Below are positions 24,138 to 41,791 of a DNA stretch of 64,000 nt, in pieces. Numbering within the stretch: position 1 is the stretch's first letter; the number at the start of each line of letters is the position of its first letter. The notes beneath the pieces are model-generated. The model made no database searches, had not been told where the DNA came from, and saw only the letters and a program-made list of their open reading frames with translations. The translations under genes were made by a program, and so were the position numbers. The stretch covers positions 1-64,000 of the forward strand of contig NZ_AKGD01000001.1 of the NCBI RefSeq assembly GCF_000271305.1, read 5' to 3'. The DNA comes from Hydrocarboniphaga effusa AP103. Lineage in GTDB: Bacteria; Pseudomonadota; Gammaproteobacteria; Nevskiales; Nevskiaceae.

Positions 24138-24419
24138 TCAGAGCTTGGTGGCGAGGAAATCGGCGATCTGGCCGATCGACAGATCGTCGACGTAGCGGCC
24201 GTCCCGCATGAGCAGCTCGTTGAACGGAAGCTTGCGCTTGCCGACCATCTCCTCGATGGCGACGACGAGCTGGATGATGTCGATCGACTCGAAGCCGAGG
24301 TCGGCGAGCAGCTTGGTCTGCCGCGTCATCTCGCCTTCGAATTCGTTATCCCAGTCCTGAGTGAAATCCTGCAACAGCTCGGCCAGCTTGCCGACCAGTT
24401 CCTCGCTCGTGGCGCTCAT
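24138..24419 (-). CDS. Free-standing acyl carrier protein
   Basis: 93-aa acidic carrier protein with the phosphopantetheine site in DLGFESIDIIQL near residue 45. The usual DSL is replaced by ESI, as in some specialised carriers. The C-terminal extension YVDDLSIGQIADFLATKL completes helix IV. The sequence is far from housekeeping AcpP and from the tandem ACPs of the megasynthase next door. It is probably loaded by the fused phosphopantetheinyl transferase of the operon and may receive or supply an acyl chain for the neighbouring acyltransferase. Spacing to both neighbours is 6-10 nt. Confidence 0.9.
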   Translation of the reverse strand: MSATSEELVGKLAELLQDFTQDWDNEFEGEMTRQTKLLADLGFESIDIIQLVVAIEEMVGKRKLPFNELLMRDGRYVDDLSIGQIADFLATKL

Positions 24420-24425
24420 AAGGTT

Positions 24426-25214
24426 TTAATCGTTGTAGTAGAGAGGTGTCGCCAGTTTATCGATCCGCAGGCCCTGTGCGCTCCTGGAGACGTGGTAGGT
24501 CGGCGGCCGCAGCGCTTCGAGCTCGCCGTCCGCGAGCTTCTGCTCGAAGAAGGCCAGTGTCGCTTCCATCTTGGAATAGTCCACCTGCTTCTTGAACGGA
24601 GCCAGGTCGTAGCGCCACCACTCGAGTTTGAGCAGGCGTTCGACGATGGATTCGCCGAAGCGCAGCCTGATCACGCGAGCCGGAGAGCCGACCGCGATCG
24701 CATAGGCCGGAATATCGCGCGTGACCACCGAGCGGGCGCCTATCGTCGCGCCCGGGCCGATCGTGACGCCGCGCTTCACGAAGCAGCCCGCCCCGACATA
24801 GGCCTCGTGGCCGATGAAGGTCTCGGACGGCACGGTATCGACGTACGAAGGCCCGCCTTCGGCCTCCGGCGCGAGCCGCGCGAACTCCTCGAATTCGTAC
24901 ATGCCCGGCGTGAAACGCGGCCGCGTGAACGCGAACGGGTGCGAGCTGAACCAGTCCTGCGGATGCTCGGGCGGACCGAGGATCGACGATTCGCCGATTT
25001 GCGCGTAGCGCCCGAAATGCACACGGAACGCGCTCGTCATGCCCGCTGCGTTGAAGAACGTGAAGGCCCCCATGGTGCAGTGCTTGAGCCTGTGCCCCTG
25101 CGGCCAGCACGGCCGCTCGAAGCGCAAGCTTCCATGCAGTCCTGCACCGATACCAACCCCGCCCAACCCGGCCTCGAACAGAGGCCTTCCCTCGCCCACA
25201 CTATGTTCTTCCAT
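24426..25214 (-). CDS. Left-handed beta-helix (hexapeptide) acyltransferase
   Basis: Trimeric hexapeptide-repeat acyltransferase of the xenobiotic/CatB-like branch. The catalytic-His region DWFSSHPFAF lies near residue 92. The hexapeptide coils IGHEAYVGAGCFVKRGVTIG and the VVTRDIPAYAIAVGSPARVI loop follow from about 140. The C-terminal third (SIVERLLKLEWWRYD onward) is longer than in antibiotic acetyltransferases. It lies 6 nt before the free ACP gene and may use that ACP as acyl donor, placing an acyl group on a lipid head group (inference). 29 nt separate it from the phosphodiesterase gene. Confidence 0.85.
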   Translation of the reverse strand: MEEHSVGEGRPLFEAGLGGVGIGAGLHGSLRFERPCWPQGHRLKHCTMGAFTFFNAAGMTSAFRVHFGRYAQIGESSILGPPEHPQDWFSSHPFAFTRPRFTPGMYEFEEFARLAPEAEGGPSYVDTVPSETFIGHEAYVGAGCFVKRGVTIGPGATIGARSVVTRDIPAYAIAVGSPARVIRLRFGESIVERLLKLEWWRYDLAPFKKQVDYSKMEATLAFFEQKLADGELEALRPPTYHVSRSAQGLRIDKLATPLYYND

Positions 25215-25243: not shown

Positions 25244-26857
25244 TCATTCCATGTAGCCGAGCATCTGCAGCTGCTCGATGATCTGCTGCTTCTCCGACGC
25301 ATCCATGTCTTCGCCGGCCTGGCGCTGGGACTTCCTGGTCGGCGCGCCTTTTTTCTGCGGATGGGCGGCCTTGTAGGCATCGGTAAAGAAAGTATCCGCG
25401 ACCTTGCCTTCCATGTCTTTGGGAATCGCCAGACCGAGGCTGTAAAGCAATGTCGGACAGACATCGCGAATATCGCGGCGCTCGACCATGTCGGCCGCGA
25501 CGATGCCCGCGCCCGCCGCCATGAAGATGCCGTCCGGATGATGCGTGCCGGCCGGCGTCGGCCGCTTGACCACGGCCGGCTGGATGTTGCGGATCGAGAC
25601 GAAGCCGTTGTCTCGCAGCACCAGCGTCAGATCGCAGGCCTTGTCCATGTGCGCGCCCGGGAACCACTCCTCGCGCTTGAGCACGTCGACGACCACGGGC
25701 TCGCCGTCTTCGTTGCGCAGCGATTTCAGATCGGCGATGAGCCTTTCGCGGAAGCTCTCGTATTCTTCGGGCTTGATGCCCGGCTCGCCGGGCTGGTTCG
25801 CCACGCGGATATGGATGCCGTTGCTCGACGGCGTGCGGCAGTACGCGGTGGTCTTGCTCCAGTCCAGGTTGGCGAAATCAGAAGCCTCGCGGCGCAGCGC
25901 CTGCTCGCTGCCGTCGTTGACGGCCCACTTCAGGTAACCCTTCTCTTCGAGGAACACGTTGATGCGCAGCACTTCGACCGAGGCGGTGAAACCATGGTCT
26001 GACGCGAAGAACACCTGCACGTCCGGGCCGCAGAGCTTGACGAGCTGCTCGATGTAATCGTCGACGTTGCGGAAGTATTCGAGGCAGACCTCGCGCATGC
26101 GCAGGTCGTGCGCGCTCGGATCGTTCTTGAGCAGCGCCGGATCGAGATACGGCCAGGCCTGATGCTGGATCTTGTCGGTGCCGTCGAACATCACCGCCAT
26201 GAGCTCGGGCTGCTCGGTCTTGAGCACGTACTCGGCGACCTGGAACCACTGGTGCTCGCGCGGCAGGTGATAGCTCACCCACTTGTAGGTCTCTTCCTCC
26301 GAGAGCACTTCGGTAGCCTGCTTCTCGTTGTCGAAATCCCAGGCCAGTTCCTTGGGATCGAAGCCCGGAATCTCGCTCTTGAGCGTCTCGAACAGCCCGC
26401 TCGGATGGCTGTTGCGGCGCAGATGCTTGGCCGGAATGAAGCCCGGAACGATGACGCCGCTGGTTTCGGGAGGCGGCGGCGCCGTGAGCGGAAAATTGAG
26501 CGCCGCGATCTTCTTGCCGTTGCGATTGGCGATCGACCAGATCATTTCCGAATCGACGTCGCGGCTGTCGTAGAGCGTCCAGTAGACCTCGCCGCCCTTG
26601 TCTTCGGCGCGGATGAAATCGAACACGCCGTGCGCGCCCGGATTCTTGCCGGTCATGATGCTGGTCCAGGCCGGCGGCGTCAGCGGGTTCGGCGTCGAGC
26701 GCAGCTTGGCGCGCACGCCGCCTTTGAGCAGCCTGGCGAGAAACGGCATGGTCACGCCCACGTCCGGCAGCTCGCGCGTCATCTCGTCGAGCACCGTGTA
26801 GGTGCAGCCGTCGAGGCCGATGAAGAGTGTCTTGGTCTTGCTGTTCTGCGCGCTCAT
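25244..26857 (-). CDS. Alkaline-phosphatase-superfamily phosphodiesterase/phosphatase
   Basis: 537-aa enzyme of the type I phosphodiesterase/nucleotide pyrophosphatase group. All metal-site pieces are present: Asp in GLDGCTYT near residue 16, the nucleophile Thr in PPAWTSIMTG near 65, Asp and His in MFDGTDKIQHQAW near 228, FASDHGF near 297, and the late His in GTHHPDG near 440. There is no signal peptide, so it probably acts inside the cell. The C-terminal tail is basic and Gln-rich (KKGAPTRKSQRQAGEDMD). In this operon it may hydrolyse or transfer a phosphate-linked group on the lipid or an activated precursor. It starts 81 bp after the second synthase gene, with a hairpin between. Confidence 0.85.
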   Translation of the reverse strand: MSAQNSKTKTLFIGLDGCTYTVLDEMTRELPDVGVTMPFLARLLKGGVRAKLRSTPNPLTPPAWTSIMTGKNPGAHGVFDFIRAEDKGGEVYWTLYDSRDVDSEMIWSIANRNGKKIAALNFPLTAPPPPETSGVIVPGFIPAKHLRRNSHPSGLFETLKSEIPGFDPKELAWDFDNEKQATEVLSEEETYKWVSYHLPREHQWFQVAEYVLKTEQPELMAVMFDGTDKIQHQAWPYLDPALLKNDPSAHDLRMREVCLEYFRNVDDYIEQLVKLCGPDVQVFFASDHGFTASVEVLRINVFLEEKGYLKWAVNDGSEQALRREASDFANLDWSKTTAYCRTPSSNGIHIRVANQPGEPGIKPEEYESFRERLIADLKSLRNEDGEPVVVDVLKREEWFPGAHMDKACDLTLVLRDNGFVSIRNIQPAVVKRPTPAGTHHPDGIFMAAGAGIVAADMVERRDIRDVCPTLLYSLGLAIPKDMEGKVADTFFTDAYKAAHPQKKGAPTRKSQRQAGEDMDASEKQQIIEQLQMLGYME

Positions 26858-26914: not shown

Positions 26915-26940
26915 GATCGCCCGATGATCACCGGGCGATC
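26915..26940 (-). repeat. Intercistronic hairpin after the second synthase gene
   Basis: GATCGCCCG, 8-nt loop, CGGGCGATC; the right arm ends inside the synthase stop codon. With no T-run it is more likely an mRNA-stability or processing element than a terminator. Confidence 0.5.
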
Positions 26941-29900
26941 AGCTGATGCGCTGCACCGCGCCATCGTTCATCTCACGCGGCTGCGCCACGGCCTTCACCG
27001 TCGCCGCGCTGGCCTTTCGACACAGCGCGATCAGGGCATCGCCGCCGAAGTAGAGCTCGACGTCGTAATCGATTCCGCCCCTGCGTACGCTCACGAGTGG
27101 CTGATTGGATGCCCGGCGCTCGAGATTCGCGCTGGCGATCACCCACTCCTGGGGTTTTCCTTCAAGACCCGTGCCGGATGCCTTGGCGGCGGCTTCCTTC
27201 GAACACCAAAGCGCCGTCGCGGCGCGGCGCTGATCGCTCTTGGGCCAGCCGTGGATGAAGGCCTGCGCCTCCGCGAGCGTGAATGCGCCGGCGATCAAGT
27301 CGTCCACGTTGACGCGCTCGATCGCCTGATGCGGCAAAAAATCGATGCCGAGCATCGCACTGTTGCCGCAGACCGCCACCGCCGAGCGGCGGCTATGGCT
27401 GATCGAAACCGCCGGCAGCGCCATGCCTTCGGGCCAGCCGGGCACCGAAACGACGCAAGGCGCACCGCTGTCGCGATAGCCGATCTCGATATCCGCGCCC
27501 GCGATATCGAGCTGCCATTCGCGTGCGGCCCATTCGCGCACGGCCTCTTTGGCACAGACGCGGCCGAGCAGCCATTCCTCGCGGCGCGGGCCGCTGCGCG
27601 GCAGCACGCGATAGAACTCGTGACGCTCGCGCTCGGTCAGCGTCAGATGCGCGAGCAGGCGCATCCACACCGCCCCGCCCTGTTCGAGATAGCCCTCGTC
27701 GAAGGCATCGATGCGCCGTGCGACGAGCCCCGACGACGCGAGTTCGCGCTGCAGCGTCGGCAGCGACAGCGAGTGCCGCAAGGGTGCCAGGCGCAGCTGG
27801 AACAGGTTCTGCGGCACCGCGTACTTGCGATCCTCCCAGCCGGTAGCGCGTGAGAGCAGCGCGCCATGGGCATCGAGCAGATCGAACTGGCAATCGAGCT
27901 TGAGCCCTTCGAGACGGAACTCGCCGCGGCCGAGCATCGCGCGCGACGCGGGCTGCGGATCGGCGTACTGCTCGTAGCGCCCGATCTGGAACGGGAAGCA
28001 GTTGTACTCCCAGCTCAGTTTCTCGGTGAGCCAGAATCCGGCGAGCTGGCCGGCCGCATCGAGCAGCGCCGGGTCGGTGCGCAAGCGCGGCGTTTGCGTG
28101 AAGCCGAAATAATCGTGCGTCGGAATCGTCGCCATGTCGGCTTCGATGCCCTGCTCGTTCCAGCCGCGCAGCCGCTTGACGCCCTGCAGGCGCGGACCGT
28201 GGAACATGCCATGACGGTAGAGCTCGCCGGCCGGATTGTTGCGCGCCGCGTTGAGCGGCTGCGCGAGCGCCGGCATCGGCGTCGGTGCAAGCAAATAGCG
28301 ATCCGCGAGCAAGACATGGCCTTCGAACACGAGCAAGGGCTTGGCCTCGTTCGTATCGAGCTGGAACAGCTTCACCGCGACGCGCGGTGTCGCATCGGGC
28401 GAAGGCTGGCGCTCGGCAACGATGCGCAGTGACAGCTTTCCGAGCTCGTCGAGCGCCAGCCAGCGATGGCCGCGCGCGTTCTCGACCACGGTGACCTTGA
28501 GCGCATCGCCGCAGAGCCGGCAGGCGGCCTCGGCGATGATCTCGACGCTGAAGGTGAACGGCACCACGATCAGCGGAAGCAGCTTGGCGTTGCGCCCGGA
28601 CGGCGCCTCGCCCATCGCGTGGTCGAGCAGGAACGGATCGGTTTCGACGCTGTAGACGCGTTCGCTGAGCAGATGCGCGGCGTCGAGTTCGACGATGCGG
28701 CCGAGCAGCGGATACTGCGGATCGAGATCATCGCCCCTCGTCGCGAGGGGCGCGGCCGAGGCGACGGCGGCCGCTGCACCGCTACCGATGCCGGCGCTGA
28801 TGCCGAGCACGCGCGCCTGCGACTGCATGAAATCCTGCATCAGCGCGAAGTGCGATTGGAGCGCGGCCATGCGCGGATCGATCGGTGTCGCGGGCGTGGC
28901 GATCGCCGCCTGTGGCAGCGTCGCGTCGACCGGCCTGGGCCCGGCCACGACCGCAGGCTTCGGCGCTTCGCTCGCCGGCACCGGCAGCGGACGCTTGGCC
29001 GGAGCCCAGTCCTGCGGCATGCGCAGCGTCGGCATCTGCAGCTTGAGCGTGATCGTGCGGCGCGTGGATTTGACGGGCTCGGCGAGCAGATCGATCTCGC
29101 CATCGATGCGCCGGTGCGCATACAGCGCGGCCGGATCGAAGCTCACGCCGCAGGCGAACAGCTGCGCGAGCATCGCATGCAGCTGCGCCATGTCGGCCTT
29201 GCGGCGGCTGTTGCTCGATACCGCGATCACGTCGTCGACGCCGCGCAAGGTGTCGGAAACGAAAGAAGTCAGGTTGCCGCTCGGGCCCACTTCGACGAAC
29301 ACGCGATAGCCGTCGTCGTAGAGCTTGCGCAGCGTGTCGGTGAAGCGAACCGGGTTTTCCCATTGCTGGGCCGCAAGCTCGCGAATCGCATCGGGCTCGG
29401 TCGGAAACGGCGCCACCGAACGCGCCGAATACAGCGTCGTGCGTCCGCGACCGAAATCGGCCTCGCGGAAATACTCGCGGTACGCGTCGGCGAGCGGCTT
29501 GAACAGCGGCGTGTGATACGCGCGGCCGAACGGCAGCTCCTGGCAGATCGCGCCTTCTTCCGCGAGCTTCTTGGCCAGCGCCTGCGCTTCATCCGGCGGA
29601 CCGAACATCACCAGCTGGTTCGGACAGTTGTCCATCGCCACCTGCATCGAACCCGGATCGGCGAGCAGCGCTTCGCGCATTTCGCCACGCAGGGCGCCGA
29701 TCGTCAGCAGCGTGCCTTCGGCGATGCGTCCTTCGGCTTCGAGCTTGCGGAAGATCAGGTTCAGGTCGCGCACCGATTCGGCGATCTCTTCGCGCGTCTT
29801 GAAGCGGCGCACGCCGCAGGCGGTCACGGCGGTGTTCTCGCCGGTGCTGTGGCCGAGCATCGCATCGGGCGCGAGCTTCAGGTCATCGAGCAGGCTTTGA

Positions 29901-31867
29901 ATCGCCATGCTCGCGGCGAACACACTCTCGGCCGCCACATCCATTTCGAACAGCCGTGCTTCGAGCGCCTTGCGCTGCGCCTCGTCGTAGCCGGTCGGAG
30001 CCGCAAAGACCGCCGAGGCGCGTGATTCGCGGCCGGTTTCGAGCGCGGTGCGCTCGATGAAATCGAACCAGTCGCGCACCTGCGGAAACTGCAGGCACAG
30101 ATCGGCGAGCATGTTGGGGTACTGCGCACCTTCGCCCGGATAGACGAAGCACAGTTTTCCGGGCGCGGCGCCCGTTCCGTAGTGCAGGCCCGAGCGCGTC
30201 TTGAACGGCTTGGCATCCGCACGCTGCAGCTTGTCGATCGCCTGCGCGAGCTTCTTGCCGAGATCGGCGATGTCGTCTGCGACGATCGCGAGACGATGCG
30301 CGCCCGCGGTCTGCGCGACACTGGCCTTGGCGAGCACCGCGAGGTCGGCGCCGGCTTCGACGTGCCTGAGCATCGCGGCTGCCTTGCTCGCGAGTTCGGC
30401 GGGCGAATTCGCAGCGAGCAATACGAGTTCGGTCGGTGCAGGACGGTGCAGAACCTGCACCTGCGTCTTCGACGGTCCGCGATATTCCTCGAGAATCACG
30501 TGCGCGTTGATGCCGCCGAAGCCGAAGGCATTCACGCCGGCCCGACGCGCATGCGACTTGCCGTGCACCCACGGGCGCGTTTCGGTATTCAGATACAGCG
30601 GCGACTGGTCGAGCCGCAATTCCGGATCGGGCTCGTCGCAGAGCGTCGGCGGCAGCACCTTGTGATGCAGCGCGAGCGCGGTCTTGATCAGCGAAGCCGA
30701 GCCCGATGCCGGCAGGCAATGGCCGATCATCGACTTGACCGTTCCGATCGCGATCTGCGGGCCGATGCCGCGGCCGCCGTAGATCGCCTTGAGCGTGTCG
30801 ATCTCGGTGCGATCGCCGACATCGGTGCCGGTGCCATGCGCTTCGATGAGATCGATCGTATGCGGATCGATGCCGCTCGATTCGTAGGCGCGGCGCATCG
30901 CGAGCACTTCGCCTTCTGGCCGCGGCGTCAGCAGGCCCTTGGCGCGACCGTCCGACGCCACGCCGATGCCCTTGATGACGCTGTAGACGCGATCGCCGTC
31001 GCGCTCGGCATCGGCAAGGCGCTTGAGCACGAGCATGCCGACGCCTTCACCGAGCAAGGTGCCCGAATGGCCTTTCTGGAACGGACGCAGCTGGCCGTTC
31101 GACAGCGCCTTGATCTGCGTGAACTGCACATAGAGCTGCGGCGGCGTCTGCGCCTGCACGCCGCCCGTGATCATCAGATCGCAGCGCCCGGTGACGAGTT
31201 CGCGCACCGCCTGGTCGAGCGCCATCATCGTCGAAGCACAGGCCGCGTCGACGATGTAGTTGGGACCCATCAGATCGAGACGATTGCAGATCAGACCGGT
31301 GATGACGTTCGGCGTGAGCTGGCCGACGAGTTCGCCGCTGTAAGGCGGCAGCTGCTGCTTGAGCCTGGCATGCAGATCGCGCATTTCGGCTTCGGAAAAA
31401 TCAGGCCGCAGGCCGCGCACCGCATCCATCAGCTCGTCGACGAACAGCGCATGCGCGAGCACATTGGCCTGGCCGCGATTGGTGTAGGTGCCGCGGCCGA
31501 GGATCACGCCGGCGCGCTGGCGATCGAAATCCTTCTTGCGATAGCCCGCGTCGGCGAGCGCATCGCCCGCATGCTTCAAGGCGAGCAGATGATCGGGGTC
31601 GCCGCCGTCGGCCTGGCTCGGCATCACGCCATATTCGGTCGGATCGATCACCGCGAGATCGCGCAAAAAGCCGCCACGGTTCGTGTAGATGCGATCGTTG
31701 CGCTGCTGCCAGTGATCGCGGTCGAGAAAGTGACGCGTCCACTCCTCATCCGCGGGCGCCACCGCATCGACCTTGTCGAGAATGTTCTGCCAATAGCGCT
31801 GCGCGTTGGCCGCGCCCGCGTAGCAGCCCGACAGGCCGATGATCGCGATGTCGACCGGAGCGGCCAT
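26939..31867 (-). CDS. Pfa-like synthase subunit: KS-AT-DH-phosphopantetheinyl transferase
   Basis: 1642-aa multidomain synthase. KS (about 1-450): active Cys in VDAACAST near 209, then EAHGTGT and IGHCLPASG histidines. AT (about 565-870): PGEGAQYP near 573, nucleophile GHSTGE near 673, AYHTPLF near 780. Pro/Ala linker, then a hot-dog dehydratase-like region (about 1050-1330) with DHAMGE near 1081 and DAAGQLAGFW in the second half. Finally a phosphopantetheinyl transferase (about 1420-1620) with SISHSRRSA, GIDF and WCSKEAAAKASG. There is no ACP, so it must work on the ACPs of the partner protein. The start ATG overlaps the partner's stop as TGATG, tying their translation. It corresponds to PfaC-type KS/DH plus PfaB-type AT plus PfaE in one chain. 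The reading frame stays open for 358 codons upstream of ATG 31867, but that part is the partner gene in another frame. Confidence 0.9.
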   Translation of the reverse strand: MAAPVDIAIIGLSGCYAGAANAQRYWQNILDKVDAVAPADEEWTRHFLDRDHWQQRNDRIYTNRGGFLRDLAVIDPTEYGVMPSQADGGDPDHLLALKHAGDALADAGYRKKDFDRQRAGVILGRGTYTNRGQANVLAHALFVDELMDAVRGLRPDFSEAEMRDLHARLKQQLPPYSGELVGQLTPNVITGLICNRLDLMGPNYIVDAACASTMMALDQAVRELVTGRCDLMITGGVQAQTPPQLYVQFTQIKALSNGQLRPFQKGHSGTLLGEGVGMLVLKRLADAERDGDRVYSVIKGIGVASDGRAKGLLTPRPEGEVLAMRRAYESSGIDPHTIDLIEAHGTGTDVGDRTEIDTLKAIYGGRGIGPQIAIGTVKSMIGHCLPASGSASLIKTALALHHKVLPPTLCDEPDPELRLDQSPLYLNTETRPWVHGKSHARRAGVNAFGFGGINAHVILEEYRGPSKTQVQVLHRPAPTELVLLAANSPAELASKAAAMLRHVEAGADLAVLAKASVAQTAGAHRLAIVADDIADLGKKLAQAIDKLQRADAKPFKTRSGLHYGTGAAPGKLCFVYPGEGAQYPNMLADLCLQFPQVRDWFDFIERTALETGRESRASAVFAAPTGYDEAQRKALEARLFEMDVAAESVFAASMAIQSLLDDLKLAPDAMLGHSTGENTAVTACGVRRFKTREEIAESVRDLNLIFRKLEAEGRIAEGTLLTIGALRGEMREALLADPGSMQVAMDNCPNQLVMFGPPDEAQALAKKLAEEGAICQELPFGRAYHTPLFKPLADAYREYFREADFGRGRTTLYSARSVAPFPTEPDAIRELAAQQWENPVRFTDTLRKLYDDGYRVFVEVGPSGNLTSFVSDTLRGVDDVIAVSSNSRRKADMAQLHAMLAQLFACGVSFDPAALYAHRRIDGEIDLLAEPVKSTRRTITLKLQMPTLRMPQDWAPAKRPLPVPASEAPKPAVVAGPRPVDATLPQAAIATPATPIDPRMAALQSHFALMQDFMQSQARVLGISAGIGSGAAAAVASAAPLATRGDDLDPQYPLLGRIVELDAAHLLSERVYSVETDPFLLDHAMGEAPSGRNAKLLPLIVVPFTFSVEIIAEAACRLCGDALKVTVVENARGHRWLALDELGKLSLRIVAERQPSPDATPRVAVKLFQLDTNEAKPLLVFEGHVLLADRYLLAPTPMPALAQPLNAARNNPAGELYRHGMFHGPRLQGVKRLRGWNEQGIEADMATIPTHDYFGFTQTPRLRTDPALLDAAGQLAGFWLTEKLSWEYNCFPFQIGRYEQYADPQPASRAMLGRGEFRLEGLKLDCQFDLLDAHGALLSRATGWEDRKYAVPQNLFQLRLAPLRHSLSLPTLQRELASSGLVARRIDAFDEGYLEQGGAVWMRLLAHLTLTERERHEFYRVLPRSGPRREEWLLGRVCAKEAVREWAAREWQLDIAGADIEIGYRDSGAPCVVSVPGWPEGMALPAVSISHSRRSAVAVCGNSAMLGIDFLPHQAIERVNVDDLIAGAFTLAEAQAFIHGWPKSDQRRAATALWCSKEAAAKASGTGLEGKPQEWVIASANLERRASNQPLVSVRRGGIDYDVELYFGGDALIALCRKASAATVKAVAQPREMNDGAVQRIS

Positions 31868-34800
31868 CAAAGACGCTCGCTGCCGATGCGATTGAGCGCG
31901 GCGCTCAAGGTGCTTTCGGCATCGAGCATCGCCAGTCGCACTCGCCCTTCTTCGTCGATGAACACCGCATCGTAGCGCACCGCCTGATCGTGATCGGCCG
32001 GCTTGATGCGGAAGCGCAGCGACAGCGAGCCCTTGGGCTTCGGCAGGCCCGGCACGCGCAGCACACGTCCGAAGCGGCTCGGCAGCGCCGATTGCTGCCT
32101 GTGCGTGCGTCCCCAGATCCAGGCGAGCTGCGCGGCCACGTCGATGAGGCCCGGGTCGAACAGCCACTCGCCCTCGGCATCGATCCACTCGCCAAGCGAA
32201 CTCGGCGACACCATCGCATCGACGCCGGCCGGCGCCACCGCCGTGATCCCGGTCAACAGGCGGAAACGACCGGTATGGAACAGCATGCGCTCGTAGGTCT
32301 GATGCGGGTCCATGCGCAGGCCTGCTATCGGCTGCGGCACATCGACGACGGGCGCCTCGAGATGTTCGACGAGCCGTACGGAGGCGCGATACAGCGGCGC
32401 CTTGCGCGTTGGATCGGCGATATCGACCGTCACGGTCTGCTCGCCGGGGCCCGAATGGCTCGTGGCCTTGGCGCGGATTTCGATCTCGCGCGTCGCGCCG
32501 GGTTCGAGCACCACGCCGGCCAGCGTGCGCAGCTCCTGTACTTCGGCGACCTGCCAGCCCGGCCAGCCCTGGCCGACGACCTGCGCGACCCATTCGGTCG
32601 CAGCCGCTGCAGGCAGAACGGGCTTGCCGTCGATCATGTGATCGCCGAGATAGGGATCGCTGTCGAGCCCGAAGCGATGCGTGAGCACGAGCGCGCCGCC
32701 CGCGCCCATGCGCAAAGGGCCACGCACGAGCGGATACTGCGAAGCCGCCGCCTTGCTCGACACGCTCGCCACTTCGGCTTGCTGCCAAGGCCCTTTGCCG
32801 ATCACGAGTTCGACTTCGTGCTTGGGTCCGCAGGCGAGCTCGCGCAGGAAGTAGCGGCGTCCGCCGTCGACCGGAATCGGCTCGATGCCGCGCTCGCGGA
32901 ACTGGCGCTTCACGCCTTCGCTCGCCATGCCGGCGTCCCACGGTCCCCAGTTCGCCGCGATCACGCGCGTTTCGGGCCAGCGACGCGACAGCGTCCAGGC
33001 CAGGCGATTGCAGGCCTCGTTGGCGGCGGCGTAGTCGATCTGCCCGCGATTGCCGTAGCGACCCGCGACCGAGGTGAAGAACACCAGCAGCTTGAGCGTT
33101 TCGGGCCTGAGCTTCTGCGTGAGGATGAAGCTCGAATCGAGCTTGGTGTTGAGCACGCGCGCGAACGAATCGTCGGACTTGTCGGCGATGCGCTTGTCCT
33201 CGATCACGCCCGCGCCATGCAGCACCGCGTCGATGCGGCCATAGTTCGCGTAAATGCCATCGATCACGCCGCCGAACGCCGCCTCGTTGCGCACGTCGCA
33301 GGCGAAGTAGCCGACGGTCGCCCCCTTGGCACGCAGGCGTTGCAGGTTCGCGCGCACTTCGCGCTCGGTCAGGATCTTCTGTACCGCGCGATCGATCTCG
33401 ACGGGCTTGGGCATTTCACCGCGCTCGCGCATCTGCTCGATCAGCACGCGCTTGAGCGAGGCCGGGTCGGTCGCGCTCGCGATGGCGCCCCCAAAAATTG
33501 ATGATTCAGGTGCCGGCTCCGGCGTGCGGCCGAGCAGCACGAGCGTGATGCCCGGAACCACCATTTCTTCGAGCAGCTCGGCGGTGATACCGCGCGCACC
33601 GCCGGTCGCCAGCACGACCCAATCCGCAGCGGGTTGCAGATGCGGTGCGAACGGCGTGTCGGCCAGCGCTTCTTCGACGGTCGCCACGCTGTAGCGCGCA
33701 TCGCCGGTGTGGCCGGCTTCGACGCTGCGATCGTCGGCGAGCAGCTCGTCGGCGAGATGCGAGGCGATGGTGTCGTCGGTCTGGCCGTTGAAGTCGACCG
33801 CGCGCAAAGTCGCTTGCGGATACTCGTCGCGCACGCAATTGAGCATGCCGTTGAGGCCGCCCGCGAGCGGCGTGCCGGGGCCGACCGCATCGCGGCCGAA
33901 GGTTCCGCCGAGACGGCTCGCGGCGATCACGCGAATGTTCGCGAGCCCCTCGCCGATCGGCTGCAGCAGGCGGAACAGCGAAATCACGCTGCGCTCGCCG
34001 AGCTGCTGCCATTCGACGAGCGTCTGCGGCTGGTCTTCGGACAAGCCGTGCAGATGAATCACGCCAGCGATGACGCCGTGTTCCGCGCGAATGCGGGCGA
34101 CCGAGGACGCCAGCGTCGCCGCATCGATCGCATCGAGGCGGATCGGCTTGAGCCCGGCGCTCTCGAGCCGCCTGATCAGTGGCAGCACGATGGCATCGCG
34201 TCCGCCTGCGACGATGACCGGACCGCTCAGCTTTACGCGGGCGCCGGTCAGCGGAGCCGGACGCGGGCGGATCACGTATCGGGGCACGTCGGCGGCTTGC
34301 GCGACGACGGGTTCGCTCGCAGCCGTCGGGATCGGTGCACTCGGGATGCTCGGCGCAGCGGACCCGGAGCCCAGGGCAGCGATGCGTTCGAGAATGATCG
34401 CGAGCGACTTGGCCCGCGTGAAACTCTCCATCGCGGCCTGCATCGCAGCGCCGATCTCGGTCGGCAGCTGCTTCTGCAGCGCGCCGACGATCTCGACGCG
34501 CTTGATCGAATCGATGCCGAGATCAGCTTCGAGATCCGCGTCGAGCGCAAGCATTTCCGCCGGGTAGCCGGTGCGATCGGCGACGATGCCCAGCAGCAGT
34601 TCGCGCGCATCGAAGCTCGTCGCAACGCTCGCCTGCACGATGACCGGCGCCGCGGCGACGGCCGCCGATGCGGGCGACGAAGCACCGAGCGCGGACAGGC
34701 GTTCGAGGATCGTCGCGAGCGACTTGGCGCGCGTGAAGCTTTCCATCGCGGCCTGCATCGCAGCGCCGATCTCGGTCGGCAGCTGCTTCTGCAGCGCGCC

Positions 34801-37800
34801 GACGATTTCGACGCGCTTGATCGAATCGATGCCGAGATCGGCTTCGAGGTCCGCATCGAGCGCAAGCATTTCGGACGGGTAGCCGGTGCGATCGGCGACG
34901 ATCGTCAGCAGCAGGTCGCGCGCATCGAACGAGACGGCGGCCGCAACTGCGAGCGGCGCGGGAGCCGTCACGGAGACCGTGATCGAGACCGGCACCGCGG
35001 AGGACAGCAGCGGCTGCACGGCATCGACGATGCTGCGCAGGTTCTTCGCCCGCGTGAGCTTCTCCATCTGCGACTGCAAGGCTTCGGAAACCGAAGCCGG
35101 CAGCGATTTCTGGAACGCGCCGACGATCTCGACGCGCTTGATCGAATCGATGCCGAGGTCGGCCTCGAGATCGGCATCGAGCGACAGCATGTCTTCCGGA
35201 TAGCCCGTGCGATCGGCGACGAGCTTGAGCAGCGAGGCCTGTACGTCGATCGAAACAGGCGGAGCCGCCGGGGAAGGCATCGTCGACGCAACCGACTGCG
35301 TCACCGCGATCGACGTCGCTGCGGCCGGCAGCAAGGTCGAGGCGATGCCTGCGAGCGGCTCGACGATCGCACGCAAGGTCTTGGCGCGCGTATAGCGCTC
35401 CATTTGCGATTGCATCGCCTCGCCGAGTGCGGCCGGCAGCGCCTTCTGCAAGCTGCCGGCGATCTCGACACGCTTGATCGAATCGATGCCGAGCTCGGCT
35501 TCGAGATCGGCATCGAGCGACAGCATGTCTTCCGGATACCCCGTGCGATCGGCGACCAGACGCAGCAGCATCGCGGAAAGCGCTGCGGTGTCGAGCGTCG
35601 GCGCTGCGGATGCTGCCGGTGTCGGCACGGCTGCAACCATCACGGCAGGAGCAACCACGACGACCGGTGCCGGAATTTGAACCGGCGCAGCAACGGGAAC
35701 CTGCACAGGCGCCACCACATGCACAGGCATCTGCACCGGAGCCGCCATCGGCATCGCCGCAGGCGCGGCAGAACCACCGAGGAATTGCGCCATCACGCGT
35801 TCCTGCAAGCTCAGGAACTGGCGCATGGTTTCGTGATACGCCGCGAGCGCATCGCCGCTTTGCGCCGACGCCGCAACCGGCATCGCCGGAGCGTGAACCG
35901 GCGCCGAAACGGGAGCCGCTGCCTGCACGACGACAGGCTCTGGCTTCGGCAGCGAATCGGCGATCTTCTGCACGATCGCCTGCTTGGCCTCGGCGGCCTT
36001 TTCGAGCGTCATCGGCGGCTCGACGCCGGTACGCTTGATCGGGTCGGCATGCGGGCGCGCATAGCCGCCCGACAGATACCAGGCGGTGGGCTTGACCGTC
36101 GCGGGCTTGGCGAGCTCGGCGACGCGAGCGAGCGGCAGGGCTTCGATCGGGCGTCCCGCGAACAAGCGCGAAAGTTCGAAATCGACACCGGCCGCGAGCA
36201 AGTCGGCAAGGCCCGACAGCAGGCCGCGCAAACCACCGCCCTGCCCGTCGAGCGACACGCAGCGCGCATCGCGACCGGCGAGCGTCGCGCCGATCATGTT
36301 GCTCAGAATGCTCTTGGGACCGAGTTCGAGAAACACGCGCACGCCATCGGCGTACATCGCCTCGATCTCGCGCACGAACTCGACGCTGGATAGCAGATGC
36401 GCATCGAGCTGGGCGCGCATCGCGGCGATCGATTCCGGATAGCGCGCACCGCTACCGTTCGAGTACACCGCGATCGTCGGCGCGTTGAAGCTGGCGTCGG
36501 CGATCGCCGCCGACAGCGGCGCTTTCGCGGGCTCCATGAGTTCGGTATGGAAAGCGCCCGAAACCGGCAGCCGGGTCACCCGCAAGCCGGCAGCCGACAA
36601 GGCCGCGACGGCCGCATCGATCTGCGCCGCCGGGCCCGAAATGACGGTCTGCTCGGGCGCGTTGTGATTGGCGACTTTCACACCCGCGAATGCCGCGATC
36701 GCATCGGCGACCTTGTCGCGCGCAGCGGAGACCGCCGCCATGCCGCCCGGCGTTCCGCTGCTTGCCGCTGCGGCCATCACGCTGCCGCGCGTGGCCGAGA
36801 GCTTGAGGAAATCGGCTTCGTCGATCACACCGGCCGCATGCAGCGCCGCGAATTCGCCATAGCTGTGACCGGCCGTCGCAACCGCCTGCAAGCCGAGCCG
36901 GCGCGCGAGATTGAGATAGCCGAGCGAGAGCGTGCCGATCGCCGGCTGGGCGTAACGGGTATCGGTCAGTTGCTGTTGCTGCGCGACCTCGATGGCCGCA
37001 TTGAACGCGGACTCCGGCCAGACGCGGCGCGACAAGCGCTCGGGCAACAGCGTCGCGAGCGTGCGATCGGCGCGTTCGAGCGCGGAGCGCAGTTCTTCGA
37101 CGAACAGCGCGGACTCCAGGCCCATGTTGACGTACTGCGCGCCCTGCCCCGGAAACACGAAGGCGAGCGTCGGCGCCGTGAGCGGACGCTCGAGCGCGAG
37201 CTTGATGTGCGGCGGCAGCGGCTTGGCATCGCCCGCGAGTCTGGCGAGCGCGAGTTCGAGATCGGCGATCAGCGTGGCGCGATTGCGCGTCGCGAACGCG
37301 AGCAGCGCACGCGAGCCCCGCTTGCGGTCGGCTTCACGAGCAAGGCTCGCGGCGAGCAGCGCAAGCTTGAGTCGCGGGCCGGCTTTCGCGAGTTCGAGTA
37401 CGCGTTCGACATCGGCCTTGAGACTCGCCGCATCGGCCGCGCGAAACACGATGAGTTCCTGCGTCCAGCTGCGAGCGCCCGGCACTTCGGCGTGCGCCAT
37501 GCCGTCGCGATACTCCTCGAGCACCGCATGGAAATTGGTGCCGCCGAAACCGAACGCGGAGACACCGCCGCGACGCGGCGTTCCATCGACGTTCGCGAGC
37601 CAGGGCTTGGGCTCCTTGAGCAGGAAGGCCGGCGAGGATTGCTCGGCGATCGCATCCAGAGGATCGTCGACATTGGCGTGCGCCGGCAGCACGCGGTGAT
37701 GCAGCGAGAGCGCGAGTTTCACCAGGCCCGCGATACCCGCGCTGGCCTTGGTGTGGCCAAGGATGGTTTTCACCGAGCCGAGCGCGACCGTTTTCGCCGA

Positions 37801-40800
37801 CGCGCCATGCGCTTTCAGCGCGCGCGTGATCGTCTCCGCTTCGGCCTTGTCGCCGACGGCGGTTCCGGTGCCGTGCGCTTCGAGCATGCCGAGCGTCGCG
37901 GGAGAGAAGCCGGCCTTGCCGTAAGCACGGTTGAGCGCGCGAATCTGCCCGTCCGGACGCGGAGCGGTCATGCCGAGCGCCTTGCCGTCGCTCGATCCGG
38001 CCACCGCCTTGATCACCGCATAGATGCGATCGCCCGCGGCTTCGGCGTCGGCCAGGCGCTTGAGCACCACCATCGTGACGCCTTCCGAGATCACGATGCC
38101 GTCGGCCTTCTTGTCGAAAGCCTTGGCCTTGCCATCGGGCGACAGCGCGCCGGTCTTGGCGAAGCACATGAAGCCATAGGGGCTCTGCACGGTGTCGACG
38201 CCGCCGGTGATGGCGACGTTGCTGCGCCCCGATTCGAGTTCGTTGCAGGCCATCGACAGCGCCGCGAGCGACGAGGCGCAGGCCGCGTCGATCGTGAAGT
38301 TGAGCCCGCCGAAATCCATGCGGTTGGTGACGCGGCCCGCGGCCACATTGAGCAGCACGCCGGCGAAGGATTCGTTGCTCCACTCGGGCAGGCGCTTGTA
38401 GGCGTCGGCATCGAGATCGGCGACGAAGCGCGGAAGCTCCGAGCGCACGCCGTATTGCAGGCCGAGGTCGCCCGCGCCTCCGCTCGCACCGAGAATCACG
38501 CTGGTGTGCTCGCGATCGAAATCCGCATGGCTCTGGTCGAGCCCGGCGTCTTCGAGCGCGCGATTGACCGCTTCGAGCGTGAGCAGCTGCAGCGGATCGA
38601 TCGACTTCATCGAGTTCGGCGGAATGCCGTAGCGCGTCGGGTCGAACAGCACCTCGTCGATGAAGCCGCCCCACTTGCTGTAGATCTTGTCCTTGGCGTT
38701 GCGGTCGGCGTCGAAGTACAGGCGCCAGTCCCAGCGATCGCGCGGCACTTCTGTGATCGCGTTGACCTTGCCGAGCACGTTGTCCCAATACGCTTCGGCG
38801 TCCTGCGCCTTCGGCAGCATCAGGCCGATGCCGACGATCGCGATGTCGCTCGGCTGCGCCTTTTCGATCCGGACCGAGACCGCGTCGTCGAACCGCTGCA
38901 ACAGCGCGTGGCCGCCGTTGCTGACGCGATCGTGCAGTTCGGCGATCGACAGCGGCGCATCGGTGAGCGTCGCCACCTGGCCGATCATGTACATGCCATC
39001 GGTCAGCTGCTGCGCCGGATCGATGTCGACGACCTTGCCGGACTCGTCGCGGTTCTTGCCTTTGGAGGCGATGCGCAAACGGCCGAGGTTCAGGTCTTCG
39101 AGCGTGTCTCGAATCTCGTCGGCATTGCGGTTCTCGCGCATGAGCGCGCGGCGCGCCTCGAAAAAGTCGTGCGCGAATTTCGTGTCCGCGCAACGCGTCG
39201 CATGGCCCGGCCCGGTTTCGAGATTGACGGTGCGCGCGCAGGCCACGGCCTGCTCCTGGAAGCCCTGCACGATCGCGCCAGTGGCGACGATCTCGTGCGT
39301 GAACAGATACGCGGTGCCCATCAGCGCGCCGACCTTCATGCCACGCGCGGCGAGCGGCGCCGTCAGCGCGGCGAGCATCGCGCCCGAGCGCGCATCGCTG
39401 ATGCCGCCCGCGAACAGCAGGTGAATGTCGGCTTCGCTGCCGGGCTTCACGTTCTCGAGCAGCACCTCGATCATCTGCTCCCACAGCGGGAAACTCGCGA
39501 TCGGGCCGATATGGCCGCCGCATTCGCGGCCTTCGAACACGAAGCGCTTGGCGCCCTGTTCGAGATACATCTTGAGCAGCGCCGGCGCCGGCGCGTGGAT
39601 GTAGGTCTTGATGCCGCGCGATTCGAAAGCCGCGGCCTGGTCCGGACGCCCGCCCGCGATCAGCGCATACGGCGGCTTGCACTTCCAGATCGCCTCGCAC
39701 TGCTCGTCGCGCAGGGCCTGCGGAATGAAGCCGAGCATGCCGACGCCCCAGGCGCGATCGCCCGCGAGCGCCGCGGTCTGCTCGAGCATGTCGAGCACCT
39801 GGTCACCGCGCATCAGCGCGAGCGCGAGAAACGGCAGCGCGCCGTTTTCGGTCACGCTCGCCGCGAAAGCCGGGCTGTCGGAGACGCGCGTCATCGGCCC
39901 CTGGGCGAGCGGATAGCGCGTGCCCTGCGATTGCGCGAGCGCGCTGCCTTCGGCCAGATGACCGAGTTCGGCAGCCTGCCGCAGCGCGTCGAAACTGCTT
40001 TTGCGCAAGGCCTGAATCAGGCGTCCGATGCGCTTGAAACGCGCGCGATAGATCGCCGCGGCACCGATGCCCTGGCCCACCGGAAGCAGCGAGGCTTCGT
40101 CCCAGCCGATGCGCGCGTCGAGGGCCTGCCGCCAGGATTCGATCGCCAGCGTTCCGGCTTCGGCGAGCCTTGCATCCGCGTCAGCGTGCTTGAGCTGTGC
40201 CGCAGCGGGCTTGGCATAAACGCGGCAGGGCGCATCGATGAGCTCGCCGAACAGCCGCGTCTCGGCACCGACCAGGCGCGCGAGTTCGTTCTTGAGGCTT
40301 TCGGGCAGCGCCGAATCGTCGAGCAGCAGAACCTGATCGTCGAGCACCACGCCGGCCGCGCCGGCCGCACGACAACCGGCCGCCGTGTGCAGGCCGACGC
40401 CGCCGCGCACATAGATCGGCAGCGAGGTCTTGCGCAGGAGTTTCTGGATCAGGATGTAGCTCGAATCCTCACCGACCCAGCCCGGAGCCTCATGGCCCTT
40501 GGCGACGAGGCCGGTGACCTTCGGCAGCGCCGCGAGCTGCACGTCGAGATCGTCGGCCCGCGTGACTTGCAGCCACGTGCGGTGATGCGCAAGCACGGCC
40601 CCGTCGAGCGACTTCAAGCCGTCGAACGGCCCCGAGAGCAGCACGGTCAGCGCGCGCTCGCCCGCATGCGCGAGCAAGTCGCGCGCGAGTTCGAATTGCG
40701 CGGCCGGAACATGCAGGCCGACGGAGCCCGACGTGGCGCTCAGCAGTCGCGCGAAGTTCGCATGCGCGAGCCCCGCGTCGGTGCAGAACTCGAGATCCAG

Positions 40801-40899
40801 CAGACCGACGCCGCCCGCTCGCGCCGCCGACACGGCGACTCCGGGATGCGCCCAGGCTGCGGGGGCCAATGCAAGGACATCGAAGCTTGGTTCGCTCAT
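31867..40899 (-). CDS. Pfa-like synthase subunit: ER-KS-AT-(ACP)4-KR-DH megasynthase
   Basis: 3010-aa iterative lipid/polyketide synthase. Residues 1-230 and 330-600 are two nitronate-monooxygenase/PfaD-like TIM barrels, the second with the FMN-site segment GRECGGHIGP near 455. KS (about 680-1130): Cys in DAACASS near 871, EAHGTGT, LGHTKAS. AT (about 1240-1560): PGQGAQY, GHSYGE near 1346. A Pro/Ala/Val linker follows, then four ACPs centred near 1806, 1917, 2025 and 2130, each with LGIDSIKR. KR (about 2200-2680): TGGARGI near 2431 and the SVAG...Y active site. DH (about 2720-3000): HMIDGKPVLP fits HxxxGxxxxP, with DVAAQ as the second-half acid. Pfa synthases usually keep PfaD separate; here it is fused in front. 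It starts 73 bp after the sulfatase-like gene. Confidence 0.93.
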   Translation of the reverse strand: MSEPSFDVLALAPAAWAHPGVAVSAARAGGVGLLDLEFCTDAGLAHANFARLLSATSGSVGLHVPAAQFELARDLLAHAGERALTVLLSGPFDGLKSLDGAVLAHHRTWLQVTRADDLDVQLAALPKVTGLVAKGHEAPGWVGEDSSYILIQKLLRKTSLPIYVRGGVGLHTAAGCRAAGAAGVVLDDQVLLLDDSALPESLKNELARLVGAETRLFGELIDAPCRVYAKPAAAQLKHADADARLAEAGTLAIESWRQALDARIGWDEASLLPVGQGIGAAAIYRARFKRIGRLIQALRKSSFDALRQAAELGHLAEGSALAQSQGTRYPLAQGPMTRVSDSPAFAASVTENGALPFLALALMRGDQVLDMLEQTAALAGDRAWGVGMLGFIPQALRDEQCEAIWKCKPPYALIAGGRPDQAAAFESRGIKTYIHAPAPALLKMYLEQGAKRFVFEGRECGGHIGPIASFPLWEQMIEVLLENVKPGSEADIHLLFAGGISDARSGAMLAALTAPLAARGMKVGALMGTAYLFTHEIVATGAIVQGFQEQAVACARTVNLETGPGHATRCADTKFAHDFFEARRALMRENRNADEIRDTLEDLNLGRLRIASKGKNRDESGKVVDIDPAQQLTDGMYMIGQVATLTDAPLSIAELHDRVSNGGHALLQRFDDAVSVRIEKAQPSDIAIVGIGLMLPKAQDAEAYWDNVLGKVNAITEVPRDRWDWRLYFDADRNAKDKIYSKWGGFIDEVLFDPTRYGIPPNSMKSIDPLQLLTLEAVNRALEDAGLDQSHADFDREHTSVILGASGGAGDLGLQYGVRSELPRFVADLDADAYKRLPEWSNESFAGVLLNVAAGRVTNRMDFGGLNFTIDAACASSLAALSMACNELESGRSNVAITGGVDTVQSPYGFMCFAKTGALSPDGKAKAFDKKADGIVISEGVTMVVLKRLADAEAAGDRIYAVIKAVAGSSDGKALGMTAPRPDGQIRALNRAYGKAGFSPATLGMLEAHGTGTAVGDKAEAETITRALKAHGASAKTVALGSVKTILGHTKASAGIAGLVKLALSLHHRVLPAHANVDDPLDAIAEQSSPAFLLKEPKPWLANVDGTPRRGGVSAFGFGGTNFHAVLEEYRDGMAHAEVPGARSWTQELIVFRAADAASLKADVERVLELAKAGPRLKLALLAASLAREADRKRGSRALLAFATRNRATLIADLELALARLAGDAKPLPPHIKLALERPLTAPTLAFVFPGQGAQYVNMGLESALFVEELRSALERADRTLATLLPERLSRRVWPESAFNAAIEVAQQQQLTDTRYAQPAIGTLSLGYLNLARRLGLQAVATAGHSYGEFAALHAAGVIDEADFLKLSATRGSVMAAAASSGTPGGMAAVSAARDKVADAIAAFAGVKVANHNAPEQTVISGPAAQIDAAVAALSAAGLRVTRLPVSGAFHTELMEPAKAPLSAAIADASFNAPTIAVYSNGSGARYPESIAAMRAQLDAHLLSSVEFVREIEAMYADGVRVFLELGPKSILSNMIGATLAGRDARCVSLDGQGGGLRGLLSGLADLLAAGVDFELSRLFAGRPIEALPLARVAELAKPATVKPTAWYLSGGYARPHADPIKRTGVEPPMTLEKAAEAKQAIVQKIADSLPKPEPVVVQAAAPVSAPVHAPAMPVAASAQSGDALAAYHETMRQFLSLQERVMAQFLGGSAAPAAMPMAAPVQMPVHVVAPVQVPVAAPVQIPAPVVVVAPAVMVAAVPTPAASAAPTLDTAALSAMLLRLVADRTGYPEDMLSLDADLEAELGIDSIKRVEIAGSLQKALPAALGEAMQSQMERYTRAKTLRAIVEPLAGIASTLLPAAATSIAVTQSVASTMPSPAAPPVSIDVQASLLKLVADRTGYPEDMLSLDADLEADLGIDSIKRVEIVGAFQKSLPASVSEALQSQMEKLTRAKNLRSIVDAVQPLLSSAVPVSITVSVTAPAPLAVAAAVSFDARDLLLTIVADRTGYPSEMLALDADLEADLGIDSIKRVEIVGALQKQLPTEIGAAMQAAMESFTRAKSLATILERLSALGASSPASAAVAAAPVIVQASVATSFDARELLLGIVADRTGYPAEMLALDADLEADLGIDSIKRVEIVGALQKQLPTEIGAAMQAAMESFTRAKSLAIILERIAALGSGSAAPSIPSAPIPTAASEPVVAQAADVPRYVIRPRPAPLTGARVKLSGPVIVAGGRDAIVLPLIRRLESAGLKPIRLDAIDAATLASSVARIRAEHGVIAGVIHLHGLSEDQPQTLVEWQQLGERSVISLFRLLQPIGEGLANIRVIAASRLGGTFGRDAVGPGTPLAGGLNGMLNCVRDEYPQATLRAVDFNGQTDDTIASHLADELLADDRSVEAGHTGDARYSVATVEEALADTPFAPHLQPAADWVVLATGGARGITAELLEEMVVPGITLVLLGRTPEPAPESSIFGGAIASATDPASLKRVLIEQMRERGEMPKPVEIDRAVQKILTEREVRANLQRLRAKGATVGYFACDVRNEAAFGGVIDGIYANYGRIDAVLHGAGVIEDKRIADKSDDSFARVLNTKLDSSFILTQKLRPETLKLLVFFTSVAGRYGNRGQIDYAAANEACNRLAWTLSRRWPETRVIAANWGPWDAGMASEGVKRQFRERGIEPIPVDGGRRYFLRELACGPKHEVELVIGKGPWQQAEVASVSSKAAASQYPLVRGPLRMGAGGALVLTHRFGLDSDPYLGDHMIDGKPVLPAAAATEWVAQVVGQGWPGWQVAEVQELRTLAGVVLEPGATREIEIRAKATSHSGPGEQTVTVDIADPTRKAPLYRASVRLVEHLEAPVVDVPQPIAGLRMDPHQTYERMLFHTGRFRLLTGITAVAPAGVDAMVSPSSLGEWIDAEGEWLFDPGLIDVAAQLAWIWGRTHRQQSALPSRFGRVLRVPGLPKPKGSLSLRFRIKPADHDQAVRYDAVFIDEEGRVRLAMLDAESTLSAALNRIGSERL
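34393..35590 (-). repeat. Tandem ACP-coding repeats in the megasynthase
   Basis: Four direct repeats, one per ACP, about 315-335 bp apart (LGIDSIKR codons near 34510, 34824, 35148 and 35481). The third and fourth ACPs in protein order (34707-34929 and 34393-34614) are almost identical at DNA level over about 222 bp, implying a recent duplication or gene conversion. The first two (35366-35575 and 35033-35240) are more diverged. Confidence 0.9.
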
Positions 40900-40972: not shown

Positions 40973-41791
40973 CTATCGCTTGCGACCTTCCAGAAACGGC
41001 ACTTCGAGCACCTTCTCGTGCACGATCGGACCGTGGCCGAAATAGCCCCCTTCACCGAAACACTCGCCGTGATCGGCGGTGATGATGAAATGCGTATCGA
41101 CGGGCGCTTTCGAGATCAGCGCGCCGAGCACCTGATCGACGTATTCGACGGTCTTGACCTGCTGGGTATGCAGATCCTTCATCTGGTCATCGTCGAAGAA
41201 CCGGTCGTCGCTGGCATGCCCGAGTTCGTCATCCATGCGCTTGAACACGCCGTGCACGCCGGAGATGTGCGGCAGCGACTTGGGATCGAGCATGTAGGGG
41301 TAATGCGTCTCGCCCAGGTTCAGGAAATGGAAGCTGGGCTCGTCATCGTAGAACTCGATCTCCTCGACCATGCCGGCGAAATCGCTGTGGTTCGCCATGA
41401 GCTTGTAGTCGTCGAAATGCTTGTTCAGATGCGAGAACGGATTGAGCACCGGCATCGACACGCGCGCGACGTTGCGATAGCCGTTGTCCTTGAGCACCTT
41501 GGGCAGCGAAAGCTGCGGCACGAAGCTCTTGAACGACAGGTCGGCGATGCCGAGCCGGCCGACCCACTGGCTGAATTCTTTCTTGTAGACCTCGGAAGCG
41601 AAGACGCCCTGCGGGCTCTCATGCGGAACCATTCCCATGAGATAGGTGTAGTGCGACGGCGAAGTCCAGGAGGCATAGGAGTACCGGCGGCTACCGGCTC
41701 CAATGCGATCCATGTTCGGACGCTTGGCGCGCTGATAGCTGTCGAACCGGCAGCTGTCCATGACGATGAAAACGAGATTGTGTCCAGCCAT
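40973..41791 (-). CDS. Sulfatase-like alkaline-phosphatase-superfamily enzyme
   Basis: 272 aa, short for a sulfatase. The metal-site Asp lies in FIVMDSCRFDS near residue 12. The nucleophile region is WTSPSHYTYLMG near 43. The later metal site is TADHGECFGEGG with HGPIVHE near 240-255. The formylglycine signature C/S-x-P-x-R is absent (T-S-P-S-H), so true sulfatase activity is doubtful; phosphatase, phosphodiesterase or phosphotransferase chemistry with Ser or Thr is more likely. There is no signal peptide. It is the first gene of the 19-kb lipid-synthase operon, preceded by an AT-rich 190-bp region that should hold the operon promoter. Confidence 0.8.
   Translation of the reverse strand: MAGHNLVFIVMDSCRFDSYQRAKRPNMDRIGAGSRRYSYASWTSPSHYTYLMGMVPHESPQGVFASEVYKKEFSQWVGRLGIADLSFKSFVPQLSLPKVLKDNGYRNVARVSMPVLNPFSHLNKHFDDYKLMANHSDFAGMVEEIEFYDDEPSFHFLNLGETHYPYMLDPKSLPHISGVHGVFKRMDDELGHASDDRFFDDDQMKDLHTQQVKTVEYVDQVLGALISKAPVDTHFIITADHGECFGEGGYFGHGPIVHEKVLEVPFLEGRKR

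Follow-up and report, generated by a model that had tools for sequence, protein, structure and literature searches.

A predicted ACP-less KS-AT-DH-PPTase subunit of a two-protein Pfa-like lipid synthase in Hydrocarboniphaga effusa, with a replaceable PPTase domain

The first 64,000 nucleotides of contig NZ_AKGD01000001.1 of Hydrocarboniphaga effusa AP103 (the window; the contig is called C1 below) code for a large synthase protein, P0001, that ends in a phosphopantetheinyl transferase (PPTase) and has no acyl carrier protein (ACP). This raises the questions of where its catalytic domains find their ACPs and whether the fused PPTase activates them. With a probability of roughly 0.7, P0001 serves as the second subunit, itself without an ACP, of a two-protein iterative Pfa-like type I FAS/PKS, in which it would contribute a PfaB-like acyltransferase and a PPTase that activates the ACPs but can be replaced. 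The gene has the span given in the initial annotation and lies on the minus strand among the following features:

40973..41791, minus strand: small alkaline-phosphatase-superfamily (sulfatase/phosphodiesterase-like) protein, upstream
31867..40899, minus strand: partner P0002, 3010 aa, with NMO/FabK-like ER, KS, MAT, four ACPs, KR and DH (PfaD-PfaA fusion type)
31865..31869, minus strand: TGATG stop/start overlap of the P0002 and P0001 genes
26939..31867, minus strand (31867..26939): P0001, KS-AT-DH-PPTase, 1642 aa, no ACP
25244..26857, minus strand: type I phosphodiesterase/nucleotide pyrophosphatase family protein, the most conserved neighbour (about 60-94% identity)
24426..25214, minus strand: hexapeptide-repeat acyl/acetyltransferase
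24138..24419, minus strand: free ACP, 93 aa, GFESID, downstream of P0001
23300..24127, minus strand: alpha/beta hydrolase

The junction of the two synthase genes reads ..CTTTGATGGCC.., confirming the TGATG overlap reported earlier. The added proposal, that this overlap fixes a 1:1 supply of the two proteins, finds no support. The intergenic distance in relatives varies from an overlap to well over 100 nt, which rules out a conserved TGATG coupling.

P0001 is divided into the following parts:

30641..31852, minus strand: KS domain, Cys-His-His intact (DAACAS, EAHGTG, KSMIGH)
29168..30148, minus strand: AT domain, Ser (GHSTG) and His present, malonyl-binding Gln replaced by Glu, Arg absent (PfaB-like)
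28797..28866, minus strand: linker helix HFALMQDFMQSQARVLG, similar to the helix preceding the P0002 ACP array
27833..28711, minus strand: PKS-type dehydratase, double hot-dog, His (DHAMG) and Asp (DAAGQ) present
27071..27586, minus strand: group II (Sfp-type) PPTase, VSISHS, GIDFLPHQ (Asp ... Gln), WCSKEAAAK

Pfam places the KS at residues 6-409 (E 5e-52), the AT at 574-900 (9e-21), the PKS-type DH at 1053-1345 and the ACPS/PPTase domain at 1506-1599 (3e-9), with E-values far beyond chance. No PP-binding domain was found in P0001 by Pfam, and a profile built from the four ACPs of P0002 detected no ACP in P0001 or in its 40 full-length relatives. The motif [DE]S[ILM] has zero occurrences in P0001. 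AlphaFold models residues 1001-1642 (mean pLDDT 88) as a helix, a disordered linker, the double hot-dog DH and the PPTase, residues 1001-1050 being helix and disordered linker rather than an ACP. The linker of residues 900-1050, where the initial annotation allowed for an overlooked ACP, gave none in the profile search, and one concealed there is ruled out by Pfam, the ACP profile and AlphaFold together. The original description of KS, AT and DH-like domains without an ACP is thus borne out by both Pfam and the profile. Because P0001 has no ACP, its KS, AT and DH have to use ACPs supplied in trans; the adjoining upstream P0002 has four, in agreement with the earlier view that these are the ones used.

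The linker helix shares the motif M..F...Q.RV with residues of about 1677-1710 in P0002, situated ahead of the ACP array. This common helix may be what is left of a lost ACP array, or else it may serve in docking.

The partner P0002 was assigned ER (FabK/NMO-like), KS, AT, four ACP, KR and DH domains by Pfam and NCBIfam. It has the KS-MAT-tandem ACP-KR arrangement of PfaA and scores 1343 bits against the PfaA model TIGR02813, whose cut-off is 1010. Its tandem ACPs carry the active Ser in four LGIDSI motifs, at residues 1803, 1915, 2022 and 2127. The ER, at residues 326-614, is of the PfaD type and matches the FabK model TIGR03151 with 80 bits, which is under the model cut-off; its counterpart in a Streptomyces relative matches NMO. 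The third and fourth ACPs (residues about 1988-2171) are 90% identical in DNA, the other ACP pairs being 69-74% identical, a difference suggesting that a tandem duplication or gene conversion took place recently.

The MAT of P0002 would load malonyl units onto its four ACPs, and the KS, KR, DH and ER of the same protein would run elongation and reduction. P0001 would add in trans another condensing KS and another DH. The KS of P0001 is predicted to be a condensing enzyme and not a chain-length factor (CLF), the latter being ruled out because Cys-His-His is present. Across the aligned relatives the KS Cys and both His, the AT Ser and His, and the DH His and Asp are kept, with rare substitutions.

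The AT of P0002 retains its malonyl features, unlike that of P0001. Glu stands in place of the malonyl Gln in all 40 of 40 aligned Nevskiales and cyanobacterial orthologues of P0001, and there is no conserved Arg. The malonyl Gln/Arg pair is thus lost while Ser and His are kept, which is the signature of the terminal AT of PfaB-like proteins. PfaB is a long-chain terminal acyltransferase without the malonyl pair; its Arg position is taken by Asn and, in the DHA type, its Gln position by Glu (PMC12895367). Since this signature is shared with the long-chain PfaB, the P0001 AT is predicted to move acyl chains rather than malonyl. Judging by these residues, it would release the finished long chain from the ACP array and pass it on, perhaps to the free ACP, perhaps to some other acceptor. 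The likeness to the PfaB of PUFA synthases, in which Glu and Asn likewise replace the malonyl pair, is limited in two respects: P0001 has GHSTG where bacterial PfaB has GYSMG, and its AT is fused to an active KS, whereas that of PfaB is fused to a KS lacking the cysteine.

Loss of the malonyl Arg would also fit uncharged starter acyl groups, and the P0001 KS is complete and has no CLF partner. The AT might therefore be a loader of starter units (acetyl-CoA or another acyl-CoA) instead of a terminal acyltransferase, with the P0001 KS performing the first condensation. This alternative, which concerns the AT and KS roles only and is compatible with the rest of the scheme, is somewhat unlikely. 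Pfa systems begin with decarboxylation of malonyl-ACP in PfaA, which argues against a separate loader. In addition, the Glu/Asn signature is that of DHA-type PfaB, which has been shown to transfer long chains (PMC12895367), in favor of the terminal role.

The P0001/P0002 pair reads as a 'secondary lipid' (Pfa-like) type I FAS/PKS, and the two-protein design with a fused PPTase is already known from related lipid factories. Pfa-like secondary lipid synthases have been sorted into classes that include Types M-T, and their PPTases distinguished by the P1b' motif, hShxH as against (F/S)NxSH (PMC3098273). The VSISHS of P0001 conforms to hShxH and fits secondary lipid Types M-T. The overall likeness of P0002 to PfaA (TIGR02813, 1343 bits) might suggest that the operon makes polyunsaturated fatty acids as PfaA-E do. 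However, Pfam finds neither a KS-CLF didomain nor a FabA-type DH/isomerase in P0001 and P0002, the dehydratases being of PKS type only, and VSISHS is the PPTase motif of Types M-T rather than of the PUFA type (PMC3098273). The pair is not a canonical PUFA synthase because CLF and FabA-type DH are lacking, and with no FabA-type DH found a PUFA product is very improbable.

Fusions of the PfaD-PfaA and PfaBC-PPTase kinds have been described in Aquimarina, Flavobacterium and Renibacterium, and Ottowia has a PfaBC that lacks KS-CLF (PMC13291983). Renibacterium salmoninarum (Type M, PMC3098273), Aquimarina sp. TRL1 and Flavobacterium (PMC13291983) resemble the window in having two proteins with the PPTase at the end of the KS/AT/DH partner. 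As far as these systems can be compared by the papers' descriptions, their products are unknown or PKS-NRPS hybrids; the present operon, in contrast, has neither an NRPS nor a PKS module and includes a free ACP together with two alkaline-phosphatase-superfamily hydrolases.

Similarity extends to the ars system (Type P; Azotobacter, Beijerinckia), where ArsD is reported to be the PPTase for ArsA (PMC4824345). Beijerinckia ArsD, likewise a DH-PPTase without an ACP, is a homologue (31% identity over 81%, E 1e-43), and ArsA is a PfaA-like partner with 39% local identity. ArsD nevertheless lacks the KS-AT part, its PPTase has Asp-x-Glu where P0001 has Asp-x-Gln, and ars includes type III PKSs. No type III PKS was found by Pfam among the operon proteins and their neighbours, and identity with the ars system was rejected on this ground.

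A plasmid cluster of Streptomyces sp. NBC_01243 (L007) has the same order of PfaA-like protein, KS-AT-DH-PPTase, ACP and alpha/beta hydrolase, and its KS2 falls in the same clade. It differs in sequence (about 33% identity), in being followed by glycosyltransferase and methyltransferase genes, and in having one Pfam ACP in its PfaA-like protein. In a KS tree that took in this cluster and left out Frankia and Renibacterium, the KS domains of P0001 and P0002 form two separate clades, each shared with the Streptomyces cluster, the second system of the host and cyanobacteria; some branches are long and their joins uncertain. Because each clade holds the Streptomyces and cyanobacterial pairs, the two-protein design appears to be old.

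The C-terminal PPTase has the GIDF(LP) and WCSKEA motifs as originally described. Its model (pLDDT 90) is two-lobed and matches the structures of Sfp (4mrt, E 2.8e-10) and human AASDHPPT (2cg5, E 6e-9). Of the metal triad, both essential acids are present, Asp1509 and Glu1558, with Gln as the middle residue. The domain thus resembles the two-magnesium group II PPTases of the Sfp/AASDHPPT kind in its fold and in the Asp and Glu of its triad, its second residue being Gln as in the prokaryotic Asp-Gln-Glu enzymes; it differs from them in being fused to a megasynthase and in having decayed in place in some relatives.

The missing second acidic residue had been named as something that may alter metal binding. 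The absence is real, but the concern is largely answered by what is known of such enzymes. The first and third metal residues of PPTases are essential and the second is not, the known prokaryotic two-residue enzymes being Asp-Gln-Glu (Wang et al., PMC4103896), and the human PPTase, with Met at the middle position, binds magnesium through Asp129 and Glu181 (PMC2148441). The missing acid is therefore no argument for inactivity, and a non-functional metal site is unsupported. The residue following GID-x is Gln, instead of the canonical Glu, in the intact Nevskiales orthologues; a three-residue insertion beside the Asp, ahead of the Gln, is found in the window copy and its closest relative (L029). 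Since the canonical Glu is kept in ArsD, in the paralogous second synthase of the host and in one Fischerella copy (L072), Gln seems to be the derived state. The stand-alone PPTase of the host (L005, 262 aa, C1:191791-192027) also has Gln at the second metal position, in GVDIQ.

The PPTase would convert the apo-ACPs into holo-ACPs, with magnesium held by Asp1509 and Glu1558 and Gln as the middle residue. That it does so, as the initial annotation proposed, receives partial support from a census of PPTases in genomes of the order Nevskiales, in which genomes at least 90% complete were counted as good. In at least eight of these (G016, G032, G033, G040, G041, G043, G044, G046) AcpS and the fused domain are the only PPTase matches, supporting in-trans ACP activation by the fused domain. 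Nearly all Nevskiales orthologues outside a decayed Nevskia clade keep the essential Asp and Glu, and where these residues are intact ACP activation is likely.

The proposal is not general, however. Seven Nevskia-type genomes (G012, G014, G018, G019, G020, G021, G024) have a fused PPTase in which the third motif lacks its Trp and Glu and the SHS motif is lost, the third metal residue being Arg and SISHS having become SISEH or similar. In Fischerella-type copies either the first or the third metal residue has gone, and Pelatocladus has a truncated domain. The synthase itself stays conserved where its PPTase domain has decayed, both in the seven Nevskia-type genomes and in cyanobacteria. Since essential residues are gone in these lineages, another enzyme must act there, and the PPTase activity would be useful but in general replaceable. 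A stand-alone EntD-like PPTase is present in six of the seven decayed genomes, the seventh genome being 88% complete. This complementarity is suggestive but is not independent evidence, because the decayed genomes form one clade and many intact genomes also have the stand-alone enzyme. The host has two further group II PPTases, one stand-alone (C1:191791) and one fused (C1:939521), so the P0001 domain need not be the activator here.

The same losses, together with the additional PPTases of the host, would suit a purely structural or ACP-docking module whose catalytic residues, also in the window copy, would be relics or redundant, the ACPs being activated by stand-alone group II PPTases or AcpS. 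The decayed domain also keeps its reading frame, with a dN/dS of 0.21-0.42 against 0.10-0.20 for the DH, about double but still below 1. Such a role is nevertheless quite unlikely for the window copy, in view of the retained Asp and Glu and of the good genomes where the fused domain is the only group II enzyme beside AcpS. Moreover, when pairs of matched divergence are compared, the decayed domain proves less conserved than the intact one: the PPTase has 70% identity against 89% for the DH within the decayed clade, and 79% against 85% in intact pairs of similar KS identity. An activating but replaceable PPTase is therefore preferred, and activation is perhaps not its sole role. An apparent frameshift at locus L065 proved to be a run of N in the assembly.

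P0001 is conserved over its whole length at about 45 loci. A genome scan for the DH-PPTase part found it in Hydrocarboniphaga, Nevskia, Solimonas, Sinimarinibacterium, Panacagrimonas, Stagnimonas, Algiphilus and other Nevskiales, and outside the order in Fischerella, Westiellopsis and Pelatocladus. A whole-genome search covering 85 genomes of the order gave hits with E 1e-10 or better in 54; in a few of these, the hit comes from the paralogous system alone. Nevskiales largely keep the order partner, P0001, phosphodiesterase, hexapeptide transferase, free ACP and alpha/beta hydrolase, and the PfaA-like gene adjoins the P0001 orthologue wherever the sequence of a relative covers that side. Cyanobacteria keep the partner, P0001, ACP and phosphodiesterase, which suggests an old horizontal transfer between them and Nevskiales. 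The operon core occurs in Fischerella-type cyanobacteria at six loci (L062-L064, L066, L072, L074), followed in L062 by a membrane/secretion-like protein.

The upstream alkaline-phosphatase-superfamily protein (40973..41791) has 80-89% identity in the three relatives checked. Neither it nor its counterpart at 25244-26857 has an obvious N-terminal signal, and the conservation of both exceeds that of the synthase. These two proteins are probably central to the product of the operon. With the terms used, a literature search on Nevskiales lipids gave nothing. It is conceivable, though doubtful, that the PPTase has repeatedly lost its catalysis and been preserved by purifying selection for a structural or ACP-docking role, so that the fusion matters for assembly beside or instead of activation, and that the operon, with its two cytosolic-looking phosphodiesterase-like enzymes, makes an undescribed lipid typical of Nevskiales. 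The operon is in any case common across the order and uncharacterised, joining a long-chain synthase to two conserved alkaline-phosphatase-superfamily enzymes, with a lipid product to be found. Its relatives form a natural series on the purpose of a megasynthase-fused PPTase: intact and the only group II enzyme, intact and redundant, and decayed in place.

The host contig from C1:1 to 203532, including the window, is repeated in tandem at 203533-407064. This repeat of 203,532 bases is likely to be an assembly artefact, because all compared stretches are base-identical and the start of the repeat coincides exactly with the contig end. Farther along the contig (L136, C1:930000-946000) the host has a paralogous pair, consisting of a PfaA-like protein and a KS-AT-DH-PPTase with GIDIE, accompanied by an ACP, a UGT-like glycosyltransferase and an ABC transporter. 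The KS and the AT-DH-PPTase of this second system lie in different frames, an apparent frameshift.
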